Of a stretch of DNA of 64,000 nucleotides, positions 45,529 to 54,920 are shown in pieces. The stretch's first letter is position 1. Each line of letters begins with the position of its first letter. A model generated the notes under the pieces. It was not told the origin of the DNA. It saw only the letters and a list, made by a program, of their open reading frames with translations, and did not search any database. A program made the position numbers and the translations under genes. The DNA is from Nitrospirota bacterium (GTDB lineage Bacteria > Nitrospirota > Thermodesulfovibrionia > UBA6902): positions 1 to 64,000 of the forward strand of contig JACRHD010000009.1 in the NCBI GenBank assembly GCA_016234115.1, in the 5' to 3' direction.

Positions 45529-46659
45529 ATGAGACCCCTGGCAAATGAGAGCGCAACAGGAGATTTTTTAAAGGGTCTTTTTTATTTTGTCCTCCTTGTT
45601 GTTGTTTCATCTGTTTCCGCAGAAGCCGCTGAATCTTCCGACCTTTCAAAGCACCCCATATATTCCGGATACGATTTTGGAAAAAAAGAGAAGGTCATAA
45701 ATCTCGGCACGCAGCCGTTGTATATACCGTCGGGGGTGATTGGTGAAGTAATGAAAAGGGACAGGACCCTGAAAAACTCCCTGAAGAAAAAGGGGTGGGA
45801 GGTCCGGTTTCACTCATTCCTGAAAGGAGAGGACATAAATTATTTCATCAAAAGAGGGGACATAGACGCAGCAATGGCAGGCGATATGCCCACGATCATG
45901 ATCGCCTCCGCCGGAAAAATCGTTGTCACGGCCCTCGCTCAACAGGGTTTTACGTCTATTATTGCCACCGATTACATGGAGATATCCGAGCTGAAGGGAG
46001 CAAGAGTAGGCTATCCCTCGGGGTCCAACGCATATTACGCGTTTCTTGTCGGCCTTTCACTGTCGGGCTTAAAAGAAACGGACGTGAAAATGATTCCTTA
46101 TGATATAGTCGAACTGCCTGCGGCGCTTTCAGAGGAAAAAATAGACGCGTTCACATCGTGGGAGCCGATCACGACCATTTCACTGCGGAATTATAATAAG
46201 TTTATCGTTATTCAAAGATACCTCAGTTCAGGTTATTTCTATATCGCAAGATCGCCGACAGGGCGGCATCCCGATATGGCCGAAGCCCTGACAGCAGCCT
46301 TTATGCGCGCCTTGATATGGCTGAGACTCGATAGAAACAATTTGCAAAAGGCCGCCGGGTGGACACTTCAGGCGGGAGAAGAACTTCAGGGAGCGCCCCT
46401 GGGCCTTTCAGCACTGCAGATAGCCGAGATGACAAGAAGCGATATCCTGGATATCGTTTCCGTCCCGTTTATTCCCGCGAGGGCCTATGAAGCCGGGGGC
46501 TCCATATATTCTGCATTTGAGTTTCTGAAAAAGATCGGCAAGATACCGCCTGAAGCAGCATGGGACAGGGTCTCCGGCAGTTTCGACAACACTATTCTCA
46601 GAAAGATTTCACTGGACCCCCGAAGGTATGAAATATACGATTTCAATTATGAAGAATAA
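45529..46659 (+). CDS. NrtA/SsuA/THI5-like periplasmic substrate-binding protein
   Basis: 376 residues, with a hydrophobic export segment at about 16-33 (FYFVLLVVVSSVSAEAAE). The body has the two-lobed binding-protein pattern of the NMT1/THI5 or nitrate/sulfonate type: VINLGTQPLYIPSG, FIKRGDIDAAMAGDMPTIM, LKGARVGYPSGSNAYYAFLVGL and EEKIDAFTSWEPI. The ligand cannot be told. There is no permease or ATPase gene. Instead the stop codon overlaps the start of a hybrid histidine kinase, so this protein probably feeds a signal into that kinase. ATG 45529 follows nrdJ by 11 bp. Confidence 0.85.
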   Translation: MRPLANESATGDFLKGLFYFVLLVVVSSVSAEAAESSDLSKHPIYSGYDFGKKEKVINLGTQPLYIPSGVIGEVMKRDRTLKNSLKKKGWEVRFHSFLKGEDINYFIKRGDIDAAMAGDMPTIMIASAGKIVVTALAQQGFTSIIATDYMEISELKGARVGYPSGSNAYYAFLVGLSLSGLKETDVKMIPYDIVELPAALSEEKIDAFTSWEPITTISLRNYNKFIVIQRYLSSGYFYIARSPTGRHPDMAEALTAAFMRALIWLRLDRNNLQKAAGWTLQAGEELQGAPLGLSALQIAEMTRSDILDIVSVPFIPARAYEAGGSIYSAFEFLKKIGKIPPEAAWDRVSGSFDNTILRKISLDPRRYEIYDFNYEE

Positions 46660-49042
46660 TAAAATACGGACCAGGATGATGGTATACTTCGGTGCGGCCT
46701 TTGTCGTTACCTTCGTCGCCATTGAACTGGCAATGATTTACGGGCTTCCTTTCACCGGCCTCGGCGGGGAGTATAAAGAGAGAAAGACCGAGGTCCTGAA
46801 ATCGGTTTCCGGGCTTGCCGATATGAAAAAGGAGCAGCTCATAAGCCTGTTCAATGAAAGGAGGGCCGATTCGAAGAGCCTTGCGGAGAGCGAAATTTTC
46901 AGGACTGCCGCAGCCGGGAAGGCCCTTGGTCGTATCCATCAAAATCTTGTCACCTTAAAAGAGAACCATGAAGTATATGAAGCGCTGCACCTGATCGATG
47001 CGGAGACGGGAAGGATTGTCGCTTCAACTGAGGCGGGCGACGTTGGGATAGATCGATCACGGGACCCTGACTTCCTCGCTGTTTTAAACCCGCTTGCCGG
47101 GGACTCCGTTACTATAAAGAAGTCCTTTAAAAGCCCGGGGATATTTTTCTACGTCTATAGTCCGGTCAGGGGGCCTCGGGTGAAAATAGGGCAGGGCGGT
47201 CCGGTTGCGGTACTGATAACCCGAAGCAGCGTTGATAAGATGATCAGCTCCATCCTCCATACAGGCAGGGCACTCGGGACCACGGGAGAGGTGATATTCC
47301 TGGACCAGGACGCGAGGATACTCGCCCCGCTCAGGCGCCCATTGCCTGACGGGACCCTGGCAAGACCTCTTGAATTTATTGATTCCTCGAAAGCGGCCGG
47401 GATGGCCGCCGGCGGCATAGAGGGGATTATTGAGGCCGAAGACTATCGGGGCGTTCCTGTGTTGGCGGTGACCCGTCATATACCGGTCACCTCGGAAATC
47501 CGTTGGGGGATTGTCGTAAAGACCGACGTTCAGGAAGTCTTTGCCCCTCTGAGGAAAGATATTATCAACGCCGCCATGATCACGCTGACAGGCTGCATCA
47601 TGGTCCTGCTTATCACATATTTGATCGCGACGAAACTTTCCGGCCCGATAAAACAATTGAGCAGGGCGGCGCAGCAGGTAGGGGAAGGCAATCTGGACGT
47701 ACGCGTCCCTGCGGAAGCTCAGGACGAAGTGGGAATGCTGGCTGAGGCCTTCAATTCAATGCTTGAGCGAATACGGAACTACCATCAGGACCTTGAGGAC
47801 CGGGTCGCAAAACGCACGGCCGAACTCAATTCGGTGAATGAGGAATTGCGCGGCGAGATGGCCGGGCGCTTACGCGCTGAAAAGGAAAAAGAAAAACTCG
47901 AAGAGCAGCTCCGGCAGGCGCAGAAGATGGAGGCGATAGGGCTATTGGCCGGGGGCGTGGCCCACGACTTCAACAACGTGCTGATGGCTATAATCGGTTA
48001 TTCGTATTTATTGAAGAACAGGCTTCAGGACGACGCTGGCCTGAGGTCGCATGTCGAACAGATCATCGCCGTCAGCAACAGGGCCGCCAATATGGTCCGG
48101 GGACTGCTCGCGTTCAGCAGGAAACAGGTGCTCAAGCCCATGCCTGCCGACCTGAACGACATTGTAAGAAATACGGAAAAATTCCTCAAGATGATCATAG
48201 GAGCGGACATTGAATTCACAACTAAATATTCGGAGAAGCTGCTGACTGTAATGGTCGACGCCGGCCAGATGGACCAGGTGTTGACCAACCTCGTTATGAA
48301 TGCCAGGGATGCGATGCCCCAGGGCGGCGTCCTCAGCATAGAGACCGGCATATTCGACCTGGAAGACGAGTATGTAAAAGCATACCTGCTGGACAACCCC
48401 GGAGTTTATGCCTGCATATCGCTTTCAGACACCGGTTCAGGTATGGACGAAGAAACAAGAAAGAAGATCTTCGAGCCTTTCTTTACGACTAAAGGGGTAG
48501 GAGAGGGGACCGGACTCGGGCTTTCGACGGTATACGGTATAATCAAACAGCACGACGGGCATATAACCGTCTACAGCGAACCCGGCAGGGGAACGACGTT
48601 CCGGATATACCTCCCGCTTATAGAGGCCGTGGCGGAAAAAGAGCAGACCCCGTCAATTGCAAGCTTGAGGGGCGGAGACGAGACCGTCCTTTTGGCCGAG
48701 GACAATGAACACGTGAGAACTCTCGGGAGATACGTGCTCGAAAAATACGGATACCGGGTCCTGATCGCGGAAGACGGTGTGGAGGCCGTCAATAAATTCA
48801 ACGAGCATATAGACGAAATCCGGTTGTGCATCCTCGACGTCATTATGCCGAAGAAGAGCGGGAAGGATGTATATGACGAGATAAAAAGGACGCGGCCTGG
48901 CGTGAAAGTGCTTTTTATGAGCGGCTATACGGCCGATGTGCTGCACAGAAAAGATATTCTCGGCGAGGGTCTGAATTTTATTACAAAGCCCGTGACGCCT
49001 GAGACGCTTTTAAAGAAGGTGCGGGAGGTGCTGGATGCATAG
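46628..49042 (+). CDS. Hybrid sensor histidine kinase (Cache-like sensor, HAMP, HisKA, HATPase, receiver)
   Basis: 804 residues from ATG 46628 (797 from ATG 46649), overlapping the binding-protein gene. Membrane helices at about 18-40 and 318-340 enclose a 270-residue periplasmic double-Cache-like sensor (DAETGRIVASTEAGDVG, FYVYSPVRG). HAMP follows (about 340-390), then a coiled coil, a HisKA motif GGVAHDFNNVLMAIIGYSYLL (phospho-His about 444), N/G boxes (VLTNLVMNARDAMPQGG, SDTGSGMD, GEGTGLGLSTVYGIIKQHDG) and a C-terminal receiver (LCILDVIMPKKSG, phospho-Asp about 738). No DNA-binding regulator is adjacent, so output goes elsewhere. Confidence 0.92.
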   Translation: MKYTISIMKNNKIRTRMMVYFGAAFVVTFVAIELAMIYGLPFTGLGGEYKERKTEVLKSVSGLADMKKEQLISLFNERRADSKSLAESEIFRTAAAGKALGRIHQNLVTLKENHEVYEALHLIDAETGRIVASTEAGDVGIDRSRDPDFLAVLNPLAGDSVTIKKSFKSPGIFFYVYSPVRGPRVKIGQGGPVAVLITRSSVDKMISSILHTGRALGTTGEVIFLDQDARILAPLRRPLPDGTLARPLEFIDSSKAAGMAAGGIEGIIEAEDYRGVPVLAVTRHIPVTSEIRWGIVVKTDVQEVFAPLRKDIINAAMITLTGCIMVLLITYLIATKLSGPIKQLSRAAQQVGEGNLDVRVPAEAQDEVGMLAEAFNSMLERIRNYHQDLEDRVAKRTAELNSVNEELRGEMAGRLRAEKEKEKLEEQLRQAQKMEAIGLLAGGVAHDFNNVLMAIIGYSYLLKNRLQDDAGLRSHVEQIIAVSNRAANMVRGLLAFSRKQVLKPMPADLNDIVRNTEKFLKMIIGADIEFTTKYSEKLLTVMVDAGQMDQVLTNLVMNARDAMPQGGVLSIETGIFDLEDEYVKAYLLDNPGVYACISLSDTGSGMDEETRKKIFEPFFTTKGVGEGTGLGLSTVYGIIKQHDGHITVYSEPGRGTTFRIYLPLIEAVAEKEQTPSIASLRGGDETVLLAEDNEHVRTLGRYVLEKYGYRVLIAEDGVEAVNKFNEHIDEIRLCILDVIMPKKSGKDVYDEIKRTRPGVKVLFMSGYTADVLHRKDILGEGLNFITKPVTPETLLKKVREVLDA

Positions 49043-49053
49043 GCGTTGGTCGC

Positions 49054-49168
49054 CGTCATTCCCGAGGTCTTTATCGGGAATCTACCCTTCGACAGGCTCA
49101 GGGCGACATGGCTTGTCATGGTGAGCCTGTCGAACCATGGATTCCCGCTTAAGGACTGAGGGAATGAC
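49054..49168. repeat. Composite dispersed repeat between convergent genes
   Basis: CGTCATTCCCG/CGGGAATC half-sites surround a hairpin TTCGACAGGCTCAGGG ... GAGCCTGTCGAA (49088-49134). The stretch separates the hybrid kinase gene from the convergent MCP gene and may act as a terminator. Confidence 0.75.
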
Positions 49169-49189
49169 GCTTACGAAACCTTAGCAGGA

Positions 49190-51643
49190 TTACACCTTGA
49201 ACCATTCCGCCATCCCGTTGAGCTCTGCTGCCAGCTTCGACAGGTCTTCCGAAGAGCGTTTTATCTCGGAAACGGACCCGGTCAGGTGTCTTGTTATATT
49301 GGCGATGCCTTCCATATTGTTTGATACCGCTTCCGTAGTCGTAGTCTGTTCATCGGTTGCCGCCGCTATTCTCTGCACCATATCGGTGACCCCGCCGACA
49401 TACGCGACTATTTTGTCTATTGATTGAAGGGTGCTGTTCACACTGGTGAGGACGTTTTCGGCATAGGTCTTTTCTTCCTTCATCGCGTTTACGGAATCCT
49501 TTATCTCTTTTTCCATCGTCTTTATCGTCTTCGTGATGCTGTCCGTTGCCTGCGTGGTCCTCTCCGCAAGCTGACGTACGTTGTCCGCTACGACGGCAAA
49601 GCCGCGTCCCTGCTCGCCGGCGCGCGCCGCTTCTATGGCCGCGTTTAAGGCAAGGAGGTTGGTCTGGTCGGCTATGTCCTTGATTAGGGTGACGACACTG
49701 CTGACCTCTTTGGATTTATGTCCCAGCTCTTCAATCTTGGCGGCAGATGCCTTGACGGTATCGACAAACTTTGTCAGGTAATTCATAGTGACGTCCATTT
49801 CTTCTTTGCCGTGGATCGCGGTCTCTTTCATGGCCTGGGCGGTCTTTGAGGTCTCCGCGGCATTTCTTGCGACATCCGTTATAGTCTGCGATATCTGGGT
49901 AATGGCTGCGGCCGACTGTTCCACCTGCTGGGACTGCTCTTTTGAGCCGCTGTCGAGCACTGACGCGGTGGCCGACAATTCTTCGGAGCTGCTTGCGAGG
50001 CCGCTGGTCGCAACCCTCATTTTCTCGACTATCTCTCTCAGATTAGTGACCATCGACGCCATGGAGGTCTGCACCGTTCCGATCTCGTCATTCGAATTGA
50101 CATTGAGCTCATCCTTCAGATTGCCGTGCGAGACCTCATCGGAGGCGTGAATCAGCCGGCTTAAGGGATTTGATATGGTACGGTAGACCCACATTCCGAA
50201 GATGATGCCGAAAATCACGACGCCGACGCTGATAAAGCCCAGGATCGCCGTGCTGTACCGGACCATTTTATTTACTGCGCCGATCGCCTTTTCCTGTTCA
50301 CCCTGTGCCAGGATGGCGGTTTCCCTGCCTTTTTCCGCCTGTTTGGAAACCACACCCTTTAATTTCTCTATGGCCTGCGCCGACCTTTCCTGCATGCTTA
50401 ATTTGTTGTGGAGTTTTGCAATTACCCCGTCATCCGCGAAAAGGTGGCCCTTTACCGAATTCATCGCAACACCCATACTCTGAAGAATCTTCAGCTCCTC
50501 TTGTACATTTATCTTTTTTAATGACCTTTCCAGGTTTTTTGTGACTGGCACGATGAATTCAAATACCTTTTCAATTTCATGTTCCGTATTGTCAATATCT
50601 TCACTGGTTGAAGCTGTGAAGAGTCTTGTCGTCAGCCCGTCTATCGACATGCTGTTGGACATAAGATCGGCGGTGCCTGACAGGATATTGTTGGCGACAT
50701 TCACCTGAAAGAGGTGCGACTGCTGTCTTTCAGTCTCTGCCCTGTATTTTTCGTTGGCCGTGGTGACCTCCTGCTCCTTTACAAGGACCACTACGGACAG
50801 ACTCTCTTTTATTTCTTTCGCGATTTTATCATAGGAGTTTTTTTCTTCCTCGCCCGCCTCTCCGAAAAGGGAGGTCCTGAGCTTTAGGAATTCTTCCAGT
50901 TTTTTCGTGATGATCTTTATGTCAGTCGACAGGCCCTTTGAGTTTTTCAGATGTTCATTATGGGATATTTTCTCTAAAAGGACATTGATTTTGCCCTTGG
51001 CAATAATGGTGCCTTTCCTGTCCTTTGCAGTCTCTGTCTCCTTGATTACAAACTGGAAGTCCTTCAGCATCGAAAGTAATAATTGCATATTCTTCATATC
51101 GCCCGCAATGGACGTAGTTTCATCCATTGATACTATAAAGGCCGCAGAGCGGTTAAGCTGGAGGCTCCTTACCTTCTTGTTCATCTCATTCAACCTGTTT
51201 GAGGATTCCTTTAACTTCTGTGTTATAGCATGTTTTGCCGCCTCGGCGTCTTCTTCAGCTTCGAGCCTCGCCTCTGTCGTTTCAAAAAATTCCGACGCTA
51301 TTTCCTTCATCTCATCATAAGTCGTCATCGCCTTGTCTCCTGCCATCGACTCAAGAGAAGACTGAGCGTTTTTTACACCAGCCAAAGAGGTCTCGGCGTC
51401 TTTGCGATGGGCGTCATATTCCTCTGTGTTTTTCGAAACGCTTACTTTAATCAGATCGGCGATGACTTCCTGTATCGTTTTCTGGAATTCAATCGATTTC
51501 ATCTGATAAGGGGTGCTCCGCTCGGTAAGGTAAAAGAGCTTGCTCTTGACGAAGCTCATGCCGATTATGCTTGTGGCGGTCACGGCGGCCACAATAATGA
51601 GGACGATTACGACATTTAAAGTTAATTTGGTTTTTATAGTCAT
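49190..51643 (-). CDS. Methyl-accepting chemotaxis protein with long periplasmic helical sensor
   Basis: 817 residues. Membrane helices at about 7-30 and 440-462. The roughly 410 residues between them are predicted as long helices with heptad-like Glu/Lys/Ala patterns, so probably a helical-bundle sensor. HAMP follows (about 463-515: [19 protein letters not shown]). The signalling domain has the invariant hairpin tip: [45 protein letters not shown]. It passes signals to CheW/CheA. It is last in a minus-strand array with three binding proteins and a rhodanese (51847-54753), which are possible ligand-loading partners. Confidence 0.93.
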
Positions 51644-51718
51644 TATTTTAAAATCCGGGATTTGGGCGGTTCATTCAACATCGCCCGAATCCCGGGCATC
51701 CTTAGTTGTTTCCCTGGT

Positions 51719-51818
51719 CGTCATGCCCGAAGTCTTTGAATCGGGCATCCAGTTCCTTAGCTGTCCGGATTCCCGCTGACTGACTGCCAACAGTAGGTGC
51801 TTTAGGCACGGGAATGAC
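51719..51818. repeat. Dispersed repeat with the 22-bp module of the MITE-like element
   Basis: CGTCATGCCCG and CGGGCATCC half-sites, then an inverted copy of the block 20079-20134 (including CAGTAGGTGCTTTAGGCAC). Lies between the rhodanese and MCP genes. Confidence 0.7.
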
Positions 51819-51846
51819 AACGGATGTGCTTTATAAAAGCATCTTC

Positions 51847-52329
51847 TTACTCCGTCGGATATCCTTTGCTCTTCCAGTCAGGCATACCTTCCCTGTACCA
51901 GTAGACCTTCTTGAAGCCAAGGTGCTTCATCATGATGGCCGCCCTGGGGGAGCGCGGACACTTGACGCCGTTGCAGTACACTACGTAGTCCTTGTCCTTG
52001 TCGAGACCGTTGGCAAGCGAAGGGTCTTTAATGAGATCATCGGCAGGCAGGTGCGTCGCGCCTTCGATCCTTTCAGTGTCATACTGGGTCTTGTTCCGGG
52101 TGTCGACGATGGCGGTCTTGTTCGATTTCCATATCTTGTGGACCTCTTCTCCGCTGATAACAGACACATTCAGGCCATCCAGAATCGTTACCGGCAACTC
52201 TTTCTTTTCTTTTTCGATCTCGGTGATCGCGTCGATTTTCTTTACGACGTCTTCCGGCCACATGTCGGCAAAGCAAATGCCTGACATCACGAATATCGCA
52301 GACAATGCGATCAGTAAACATCTCTTCAT
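51847..52329 (-). CDS. Periplasmic rhodanese-like sulfurtransferase
   Basis: 160 residues from ATG 52329 (AAGGAG 8 nt upstream). A signal peptide (KRCLLIALSAIFVMSG, cut near CFA) exports it. The rhodanese domain (about 55-155) has IVDTRNKTQYDTERIEGATHLP and the active-site loop VVYCNGVKCPRS with the catalytic Cys, followed by AAIMMKHLGFKKVYWYREGMPDWKSKGYP. Single-domain periplasmic rhodaneses bind or transfer sulfane sulfur. Located between the PstS-like binding proteins and the MCP, so a role in sensing sulfur species is conceivable but not shown. Confidence 0.87.
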   Translation of the reverse strand: MKRCLLIALSAIFVMSGICFADMWPEDVVKKIDAITEIEKEKKELPVTILDGLNVSVISGEEVHKIWKSNKTAIVDTRNKTQYDTERIEGATHLPADDLIKDPSLANGLDKDKDYVVYCNGVKCPRSPRAAIMMKHLGFKKVYWYREGMPDWKSKGYPTE

Positions 52330-52374
52330 TTTATATCTCCTTTTTTTGAGGTTTAAACACACCTTATGGTGTTT

Positions 52375-53136
52375 TTATTGTTTAATGTAACCCCGCCCCT
52401 CTCCCTTTATAAAGTCGAAGAGTTTCTGTACATCGGGAGACGGCCGGCCCTTTGTGACTGCTATGATCGGCCTCGATATCTCCGGGATATTGGGGACGCT
52501 GACCGTCGCGTCGGAGAGGCCGAGCGGGTCGATGCCGATGGCCTCTGCATTTGCGGCCACGGTCTCTTTTATATTCACGTAGTCCGTGGCGTCAAGGACA
52601 TCCTTTGTCACTGCCTCGCCGTCTAATATCTCCTGTGTGAATACGGCGTTTTGTCCGGGAGATGCTTTACCCCAGATAACAATGATGGGTAAATCATTTC
52701 CTCCGAGCCCCGCCCAGTTCGTTATCTTGCCTGTAAATATCCCTTTCAACTCTTCCCTGGACAGTTTTTTGACAGGATTGTCCTTGTGGAGAAAGACGAC
52801 CGTCCTGTTTTTTGCTATCTCCGTCTGCTGAAGGCTTGCTGGATCAACAGTTATCCCATCCTTTTCAGCGCCCTTTATCATGTTTTCAAGCGTTACGGCG
52901 GCAGTGGCTATATCCGCCTTCCCCTCGATCAGGTCTATAAGACCGTTTTTCGGCGTGCTCTGCAGGACATTGAGCGTATTGCCGGTCGCTTTTTCATAGG
53001 GAGAGGCCAGCGGCCTGAATACGGTATTTATCGCCGCGCCGCCGCCGTTGACCTTGATTTCAGCTCCCAGGGCGATGGCGCCGCTCATTAGAAAAAGGAC
53101 AAGGCCGGCAATAAAAAAAGTTTTGTACTTTGACAT
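52375..53136 (-). CDS. PstS-like periplasmic substrate-binding protein 1
   Basis: 253 residues with signal peptide (cut near ALGAE). Phosphate-binding-protein-like fold: EIKVNGGGAAINTVFRPL (first anion-binding loop in PstS relatives), GKADIATAAVTLENM, VVFLHKDNPVKKLSREELKGIFTGKITNW and a C-terminal SPDVQKLFDFIKGEGRGYIKQ. It is more diverged from the next two than they are from each other. The ligand (phosphate, other oxyanion or another small molecule) cannot be read from sequence. No pstCAB genes are near. Confidence 0.87.
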   Translation of the reverse strand: MSKYKTFFIAGLVLFLMSGAIALGAEIKVNGGGAAINTVFRPLASPYEKATGNTLNVLQSTPKNGLIDLIEGKADIATAAVTLENMIKGAEKDGITVDPASLQQTEIAKNRTVVFLHKDNPVKKLSREELKGIFTGKITNWAGLGGNDLPIIVIWGKASPGQNAVFTQEILDGEAVTKDVLDATDYVNIKETVAANAEAIGIDPLGLSDATVSVPNIPEISRPIIAVTKGRPSPDVQKLFDFIKGEGRGYIKQ

Positions 53137-53186
53137 ACGTTACACCTCCTTGCGGTATCTCAGACTGACAAATGACAGGCAGATAT

Positions 53187-53954
53187 TTATTTCTTTATAT
53201 GTTTCTGGCCTTCACCCTTTATGAAGTCAATAAGCTTTTGCAGGTCAGGCGATATTTTGCCCTTTGCAAATACGTTGATGGGTTTTGTCTTCACCACCGT
53301 GGACTCTGGAGATTTGACAGAGGCGTCAATCAGGCTTGACGGCAGGTAACCCACTGCTTCTGGAAGGGTCGCCACGGACTGTTTCACATCCTCAGCGGTT
53401 TTTACTTCGAGGTGGTCCTTTGTCAGCGGTTCCTTTTCAAGTATCTGGTCGGAAAAGGTCTTATTGCTCGCCTCAAGGAGCGAGCCCCAGATTACAATTA
53501 CAGGCGCGTCTTTTCCTCCCACATCTTTCCAGTTTTCAATCTTGCCTGCAAAGAGCTCTTTTATCTGCGCGGCAGTAAGCGCTGATACGGGATTGTCCTT
53601 ATGGATGACAATCTTATAACTCTTCGGCTCTTCAATTGTCACCTCCTGATATGCTGCATCGCCGCTGACTTCATAGCCGTCCTTTTTCAGCAGGTCGATA
53701 AGCTCATCCATTGTATGGGCCGCCATTGCGGCGTCGATTGTCCCGGCATCCAGGGCCTTGATTGCGGCCTTGCTGCCGTACGTGAATGTCGTCAGGTCAA
53801 TCCCGGTGGCTTTTTCAAAAGGTTCTTCAACAGGCTTCAGGACCGAGTTTGAAGCTGTTGTACCTGCCCCGATCCTGAGTTCGGACGCAAAGACCCCGCT
53901 ACTGCATACGGAAACAGCGAGGATTACAGCGACTGCGAAAATATTCCTTTTCAT
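53187..53954 (-). CDS. PstS-like periplasmic substrate-binding protein 2
   Basis: 255 residues from ATG 53954 (GGAGGAGG upstream). The in-frame start at 53993 would spoil the signal peptide (KRNIFAVAVILAVSVCSSGVFAS). Mature protein with LRIGAGTTASNSVLKPVEEPFEKATG, KALDAGTIDAAMAAHTMDEL, IVIHKDNPVSALTAAQIKELFAGKIENW and the C-terminal SPDLQKLIDFIKGEGQKHIKK. About half identical to copy 3 by eye. Member of a three-gene tandem family on the minus strand. Probably delivers a ligand to the nearby MCP instead of a transporter. Confidence 0.87.
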   Translation of the reverse strand: MKRNIFAVAVILAVSVCSSGVFASELRIGAGTTASNSVLKPVEEPFEKATGIDLTTFTYGSKAAIKALDAGTIDAAMAAHTMDELIDLLKKDGYEVSGDAAYQEVTIEEPKSYKIVIHKDNPVSALTAAQIKELFAGKIENWKDVGGKDAPVIVIWGSLLEASNKTFSDQILEKEPLTKDHLEVKTAEDVKQSVATLPEAVGYLPSSLIDASVKSPESTVVKTKPINVFAKGKISPDLQKLIDFIKGEGQKHIKK

Positions 53955-53994
53955 TTCTTTCCTCCTCCTGTAATTAGCGACGTGCTCCTCCATA

Positions 53995-54753
53995 TTATTT
54001 TTTTATATACTTACGGCCGTCACCTTTTATAAATTCAATAAGCGCCTGGATATCAGCCGAGGGTTTGCCCTTTGCAAATATATTCATGGGTTTTGTTATC
54101 AACGCAGGGGCCGCGGGGGCCTTGACAGAGGCGTCAAGCAGAGCTGCCGGCAGATAACCTATTGCTTCGGGACGGGAGGCGACGTTGTACGTCACGTCAT
54201 TAACTGAAAGGAGATGCCCCGCCCACGGCTCGTTGTTGAGAATTTGGTCTTCAAATGCCTTATTACAACTCTCGGATCTCTTACCCCGGACTACTGTTAC
54301 CGGTAAATCCGCCCCTCCCACTTCCTTCCAGTTATTTATCCTGCCGGTAAACAATCCTCTCAACTGTTCAATAGTGAGCGAGTTGACAGGGTTGTTCCTG
54401 TGGACAATTACGACATTGTGTTTTGGCTCGTCGATTTTTATCTCCTGAAATGCAGCGGGCTCTTTAATTTCATAGCCGTCTTTCTTCAGAATGTCGATGA
54501 TTTCTTCTTTAGTATGAGCTCCCATTACGGCGTCGACATCTCCCTGATCCAGGGCCTTGAAGGCGGCCGTACTTCCGTAGGTCGTGACGGTCAGATTTAT
54601 CCCTGTGGCTTTTTCAAAAGGGTCTTCCACGGGTCTAAGTACCGAGGCGGAGGCGGTTGTCCCCGCCCCGACCCTGATTTCAGACGCGAACGCGAATGCG
54701 CTGCTTATAAAGAGAGAGACGATAATGATAAAAATATAACCGCATTTCTTCAT
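53995..54753 (-). CDS. PstS-like periplasmic substrate-binding protein 3
   Basis: 252 residues, first gene of the minus-strand array, with GGAGAC before the ATG and signal peptide KKCGYIFIIIVSLFISSAFAFAS. Pattern as in copy 2: IRVGAGTTASASVLRPVEDPFEKATG, KALDQGDVDAVMGAHTKEEI, VVIVHRNNPVNSLTIEQLRGLFTGRINNW and ADIQALIEFIKGDGRKYIKK. It differs at the position of the second anion loop (VVRGKRSESCNKAF), which could mean another ligand. The operon promoter should lie in 54754-54850, where I see no clear boxes. Confidence 0.87.
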   Translation of the reverse strand: MKKCGYIFIIIVSLFISSAFAFASEIRVGAGTTASASVLRPVEDPFEKATGINLTVTTYGSTAAFKALDQGDVDAVMGAHTKEEIIDILKKDGYEIKEPAAFQEIKIDEPKHNVVIVHRNNPVNSLTIEQLRGLFTGRINNWKEVGGADLPVTVVRGKRSESCNKAFEDQILNNEPWAGHLLSVNDVTYNVASRPEAIGYLPAALLDASVKAPAAPALITKPMNIFAKGKPSADIQALIEFIKGDGRKYIKK

Positions 54754-54857
54754 GGTCGGTCTCCTTACTTATTCACCTTTTGATTGTGTCTCCCTAATCA
54801 GGTAAGTATTGATTCGGAAATTTGTTAAGAAAACTTTAGACGAGGAGAAAAGAGGGG

Positions 54858-54920
54858 GTCATGGGGCAAGGGTCAAGGGGCATGGCAAAGGTTTTTCTCC
54901 TGACCCTTGCCCCCTGACCC
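54858..54920. repeat. Inverted heptamer repeat (GGGTCAA/GGGGCAA type)
   Basis: Units GGGGTCA, GGGGCAA and GGGTCAA, spacer, then GACCCTTGCCCCCTGACCC in inverted order. It lies directly behind the stop codon of the M16 gene at 54921 and could act as its terminator. Confidence 0.85.

Follow-up and report, generated by a model that had tools for sequence, protein, structure and literature searches.

Binding-protein-dependent receptors and the locus studied here

Most of the chemoreceptors known to depend on a binding protein use one that belongs to a transporter. We describe here a locus in a 64,000-nucleotide stretch of Nitrospirota DNA (assembly GCA_016234115.1, contig JACRHD010000009.1, positions 1 to 64,000; the whole stretch is called the window), in which three PstS-like periplasmic binding proteins (PBPs) are encoded in a row with a rhodanese and a methyl-accepting chemotaxis protein (MCP). 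The MCP has the layout of solute-binding-protein-dependent chemoreceptors of the CtpL-PstS and Tar-MBP kind, namely, a transmembrane protein with a periplasmic ligand domain, a HAMP domain and a signalling domain. The five genes quite probably form a dedicated, transporter-free chemosensory unit, in which the PBPs would bind ligands, dock on the MCP and change taxis, with the rhodanese as a second input.

In Pseudomonas aeruginosa, PstS and CtpL form a 1:1 complex (PMC4926252), and CtpL has a helical bimodular (HBM) periplasmic domain (PMC6321045). The likeness to the present locus is that a PstS-family protein signals there, and would signal here, via a chemoreceptor whose periplasmic domain is helical (PMC4926252; PMC6321045). 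The PstS of that system, however, is encoded with pstCAB, also serves uptake and binds phosphate at 7 nM, whereas in the unit described here the MCP is accompanied by more than one dedicated PBP lacking the phosphate motif, by an added rhodanese and by no transporter. In the TorT-TorS pair, which senses trimethylamine N-oxide, the sensor is a histidine kinase and the binding protein is not PstS-like. TorS receives input from the periplasmic binding protein TorT (PMC6321045), the two form a complex, and TorS is the best structural match of the sensor domain studied here, although only ~270 TorS residues are aligned against a domain of ~430 amino acids (aa). McpZ (8f7n) likewise has a long helical chemoreceptor domain, but shares 8% sequence identity with the one here. 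More than one binding protein is required by a single chemoreceptor in the AibA/AibB-TlpB system of Helicobacter pylori, although TlpB carries an sCache domain (PMC6321045). Since binding-protein-dependent chemoreceptors are already known, the rhodanese as a receptor partner would, if true, be the novel part; our literature search found nothing on rhodaneses with chemoreceptors or on such a Nitrospirota unit, although an earlier description elsewhere is possible.

Gene content of the unit

The genome is 3.5 Mb in size and carries the unit on contig C60. The row runs on the minus strand from 54753 to 49190 and comprises the following features:

53995..54753, minus strand: PBP-A, PstS-like periplasmic binding protein, 252 aa, signal peptide; PF12849, E 2.5e-22; in one 100-supported tree group with PBP-B and PBP-B orthologues
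53187..53954, minus strand: PBP-B, PstS-like periplasmic binding protein, 255 aa, signal peptide; PF12849, E 3e-22
52375..53136, minus strand: PBP-C, divergent PstS-like paralogue, 253 aa, signal sequence; PF12849, E 8e-19
51847..52329 (ATG), minus strand: periplasmic single-domain rhodanese, 160 aa, signal sequence MKRCLLIALSAIFVMSGICFA, loop YC-N-G-V-K-C-P-R-S; PF00581, E 2.5e-17
51717..51821, no strand: dispersed repeat of ~100 bp, located in the rhodanese-MCP spacer and matched at 46 other places in the genome
49190..51643, minus strand: MCP, 817 aa, with a first transmembrane segment, a ~430-aa helical periplasmic sensor domain, a second transmembrane segment, HAMP (5e-11) and signalling domain (MCPsignal, 1e-43)
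50258..51556, minus strand: periplasmic sensor domain of the MCP, predicted TorS/McpZ-like helical fold; modelled with a predicted local distance difference test (pLDDT) score of 89.5, with structure matches

The start of PBP-B is the ATG at 53954, preceded by a good ribosome site, GGAGGAGG, and not 53993. No permease or ATPase gene adjoins the unit among the flanking genes checked, and neither pstC, pstA nor pstB occurs within the window. Coordinates and Pfam matches thus bear out the initial annotation, which had described five minus-strand genes (three binders, a signal-peptide rhodanese and an MCP) without a transporter.

Receptor-linked binding proteins branch separately from transport PstS

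PBP-A shares 56% identity with PBP-B and 39% with PBP-C. All three score above the PF12849 cut-off, while TIGR02136 matches only below threshold (73-78 versus 206.6 bits). An AlphaFold2 (AF2) model of PBP-B (pLDDT 90.7) matches PstS structures with Z scores of up to 19.7, and the PstS fold is thus predicted to be retained by the receptor-linked PBPs. We classed PBPs by the gene downstream of them, which was an MCP in 62 cases, a pst gene in 44 and another gene in 17; the Escherichia coli pst locus was used solely as a reference sequence. In the tree, a single branch separated all MCP-linked PBPs from every pst-linked protein, and this split received 100/100 support when the tree was thinned and bootstrapped. 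A pst permease gene was the downstream neighbour in 0 of the 62 MCP-linked cases, and the genuine pstS-pstC-pstA set of the genome lies elsewhere, at C33.

The motif R-x(2,4)-S-G-[TS] was found in 41 of 42 pst-linked PBPs and in 0 of 60 MCP-linked ones. We take the R-x-SGT segment to represent the Arg and the Ser-Gly-Thr stretch that ligate phosphate in structures of E. coli PstS. Judged by sequence, the receptor-linked PBPs appear to be a sensory lineage that has left transport. We looked for relatives with the binders beside pstCAB and found none, which, together with the fully supported split from pst-linked PstS, strongly supports the initial proposal of a dedicated sensory unit without a transporter. 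The accompanying proposal that the three binders cover several oxyanions fared differently, since the phosphate-holding residues are gone in 60/60 receptor-linked PBPs; an oxyanion ligand, assigned by analogy to PstS, is not supported in view of this loss.

These proteins could also be ordinary high-affinity scavengers for a distant transporter, such as the pst system at C33, that contact the MCP as well, in the manner of Pseudomonas PstS. In Pseudomonas and E. coli, chemotaxis-active binding proteins are indeed shared with transporters (PMC4926252). The pst operon of this genome has its own PstS, however, and the separate lineage, the missing phosphate-binding residues and the lack of downstream permease genes make the scavenger explanation improbable.

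PBP-C forms a 100-supported group with copies at loci L062, L071, L067 and L100 and has orthologues in genomes G001, G044 and G132 and in a Geobacteraceae metagenome-assembled genome (MAG), while PBP-A and PBP-B belong to a different tree group. The retention of divergent paralogues suggests that more than one ligand is bound. A PstS lineage would have turned into a signalling part, and two phyla, one of them with the cultivable Geomonas, keep divergent paralogues of it next to a single receptor.

Three more PBP_like_2 genes, each with a 4-base overlap with the gene downstream, were seen in genome G000 at C4 (L261:1411-4481), C59 (L262:1173-4660) and C13 (L263:37-3371); the overlapping gene encodes a PAS/GAF sensor protein at C4 and C59 and a 769-aa protein at C13. 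The same genome has a second che operon on C68 (L059, 5762-13057), where a GSTT-type PstS-like gene has an MCP gene on one side and a CheW-like gene on the other, with an MCP and CheA coming next.

The arrangement recurs in two phyla

A profile built from the three PBPs gave matches in 56 of 150 related genomes, and in most of the 40 neighbourhoods fetched an MCP, usually of 810-850 aa, lay directly downstream. To avoid selecting by PBP presence, a second search was keyed on the receptor sensor domain. In the class, 51 receptors from 30 genomes were matched; immediately upstream, 32 of them had between one and three PBPs and 18 had a rhodanese, so that 40 had either. The remaining 11 included four receptors directly preceded by a LivK-type Peripla_BP_6 protein and three directly preceded by a Tll0287-like protein.

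The PBP-receptor pair was also found in Geomonas propionica (two PBPs), Geomonas edaphica and a Geobacteraceae MAG (three tandem PBPs). The receptor was present in 86 of 141 genomes of the order containing Geomonas, and among the 51 receptors examined there (the best-scoring ones plus 20 regions picked down the list) PBPs lay upstream of 39, a Tll0287-like protein upstream of 1 and no recognised partner upstream of 11; the GC-rich Geobacterales loci were scored by six-frame profile searches. The arrangement is therefore not due to chance, since the same setup recurs in tens of genomes. Neighbourhood conservation, named in the initial annotation as a check, is thus found in both the Nitrospirota relatives (32/51) and the Geomonas order (39/51).

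Two Geobacteraceae receptors (L104:9735-14522 and L105:9703-14094) have the same sensor domain followed by an array of eight or more HAMP domains and then the signalling domain. At L103:9806-12160, the same PBP and sensor domain are joined to a GAF domain, and no output domain was recognised.

Partner type follows the receptor sensor domain

The AF2 model of the sensor domain is all helical. Its best structural match was TorS, with a Z score of 18.2 and a root mean square deviation (rmsd) of 2.1 over 224 residues, and the TorS-TorT complexes (3o1h/i/j) scored Z 16-18. McpZ reached Z 16.9 and a Foldseek E value of 3e-5, the only PDB match under E 0.001, with an alignment of 333 residues and an rmsd of 9.1. 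Further matches were McpS (Z 14.5) and PilJ (Z 13.7), but high Z scores come easily with helical bundles, for which matches under about Z 13 are unspecific, and only the TorS and McpZ results were relied on. No Pfam sensor-domain family matched the MCP at E 0.001.

In a tree of 99 sensor domains, partner labels changed 16 times, compared to a mean of 35.7 for shuffled labels. Separate branches held the Tll0287 group, the LivK-type group (one member without this partner), receptors with GSTT-type PBPs and receptors with window-type PBPs and/or rhodanese, the PBP partners falling into two types, I and II. Such tracking of sensor-domain branches by partner type is the pattern that receptor-partner co-evolution would be expected to leave, and related receptors would have exchanged their PBPs for a LivK-type or Tll0287-like partner. 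Receptors with a LivK-type binding protein or a Tll0287-like protein in place of the PBPs were seen at L197-L200 and at L194-L196 and L259.

The rhodanese as a possible second partner

Within the genus, the rhodanese gene lies directly 5' of the receptor in 10 of 10 members, while PBPs are found there in four (G000, G001, G003 and G006); the rhodanese is thus the most constant receptor partner in the genus, ahead of the binders. No rhodanese was found with the Geobacterales units examined, which rules it out as a universal partner. Eight orthologues share the loop YCNG[IV][KR]C[PWT]RS with an invariant Cys-x4-Cys. In seven further relatives from the class, the rhodanese gene contains one in-frame TGA; in 3/3 paralogues checked, this codon (selenocysteine, Sec) replaces the first loop Cys, and each adjoins a PF03601 gene, a family that we take to be that of putative sulfate exporters:

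L203:4038-4511, L204:3747-4226 and L205:3221-3697: Sec-containing rhodanese paralogues beside PF03601 genes

Because the Cys/Sec exchange marks the catalytic residue, the rhodanese is probably an active enzyme of sulfur or redox chemistry. The L203 locus also contains a Tll0287 sensor kinase and a sigma-54 regulator.

Whether the enzyme has anything to do with the receptor can be read in several ways. It could be an unrelated housekeeping protein, handling cyanide or thiosulfate in the periplasm and merely sharing the operon. Rhodaneses are common in sulfur metabolism, and this family adjoins PF03601 genes as well, so that this explanation deserves serious weight, but adjacency to the same receptor at 18 loci, in several families and even without PBPs, speaks against it, and on balance we doubt it. 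Conversely, the rhodanese could be the true partner of this receptor subtype, which would then sense sulfane sulfur or thiol redox state, the PBPs being later or auxiliary additions. Its adjacency to the type-I receptor throughout the genus, where PBPs occur in only 4/10 members, and the invariant Cys-x4-Cys loop, whose first Cys is Sec in paralogues, favour such a role. However, Geobacterales and many members of the class pair the same receptor with PBPs and no rhodanese, making the PBP pairing the broader pattern, and 19 of 37 rhodanese matches lie apart from these MCPs; we therefore regard this explanation as possible but rather unlikely.

Under the reading that we prefer, a binding-protein-dependent unit, the rhodanese may inform the receptor beside the PBPs. 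Only tentatively do we propose that, alongside the sensing-only PstS-like lineage, it acts as a signal-presenting partner, whose active-site Cys (in its persulfide or disulfide state) or product would report sulfane sulfur or thiol redox. If true, an enzyme, and not a passive binding protein, would guide chemotaxis. The initial suggestion that the rhodanese processes or reports sulfur may hold: the Sec paralogues beside PF03601 genes add to its plausibility, but no sulfur link was found for the unit itself.

Proposed function, transcription and output

The proposed unit rests on gene content, conserved adjacency, a separate binder lineage, loss of the phosphate motif, the sensor-domain fold and che-cluster membership in relatives, from which we infer docking, ligand binding, taxis output and rhodanese chemistry. 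The three PstS-like proteins would bind one or more small periplasmic ligands and attach to the extended helical sensor domain of the receptor, in the way that TorT docks on TorS and PstS on CtpL, and docking would alter the activity of CheA and the rotation of the flagella. By using three divergent paralogues, a single receptor could cover a broader range of ligands. The rhodanese would provide a second periplasmic input: either it converts a sulfur species, and the receptor senses a product or intermediate of this reaction, or the receptor directly reads its Cys/persulfide state. The unit raises the questions of what environmental Nitrospirota and Geobacterales swim towards and of whether a chemoreceptor can have a secreted enzyme as its sensor.

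Seven relatives (L063, L067, L072, L074, L075, L077 and L079) have the PBP-MCP unit, with or without the rhodanese, inside a cheR-cheY-cheA cluster, where a CheW-CheZ protein and CheB flank it, and in some of them an ODP-family or a hemerythrin-like protein is also present. In the genome studied here, the orthologous che cluster is on C51, a contig shared with flagellins, and the five-gene unit occupies a separate site. Since the units of relatives sit in the che cluster and the orthologous cluster shares its contig with flagellins, flagellar taxis is the expected output.

The PBP-A, PBP-B, PBP-C and rhodanese genes are closely spaced, and a strong inverted repeat lies at 54856-54920, between a peptidase gene and PBP-A. 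The gap from rhodanese to MCP is ~204 bp and contains the dispersed repeat, compared to ~70-80 bp in close relatives; because these relatives have a rhodanese-MCP spacing of ~70 bp, a single transcript for all five genes is likely. Promoter and terminator scans gave matches at chance level. Dispersed repeats of the GTCATTCCCG-type, at 51717-51821 and 49054-49169, border the MCP on both sides.

Some observations weigh against the proposed unit. The repeat-bearing spacer separates rhodanese from MCP and weakens the case for co-transcription. In addition, 12 of the 99 receptors have no recognised neighbouring partner, and some may act alone or with distant genes. Finally, the locus of 6 of 10 genus members has the receptor and the rhodanese but no PBPs, which are therefore not obligatory there. 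That the adjacency reflects chance or a lineage-specific rearrangement without functional link, as the position away from the che cluster and the repeat between rhodanese and MCP might suggest, is highly improbable given the same gene order in two phyla, its presence in che clusters of relatives and a partner type that tracks the sensor-domain tree.

Neighbouring genes

The unit is flanked by two M16 peptidases on one side and by a convergent SsuA-like binding protein and a hybrid kinase on the other. The latter two (45529-49042, plus strand) are an SsuA/NMT1-like binding protein gene that overlaps by 32 bases with a dCache-HAMP hybrid histidine kinase gene, and they constitute a second transporter-free pair of binding protein and sensor, adjoining the unit.

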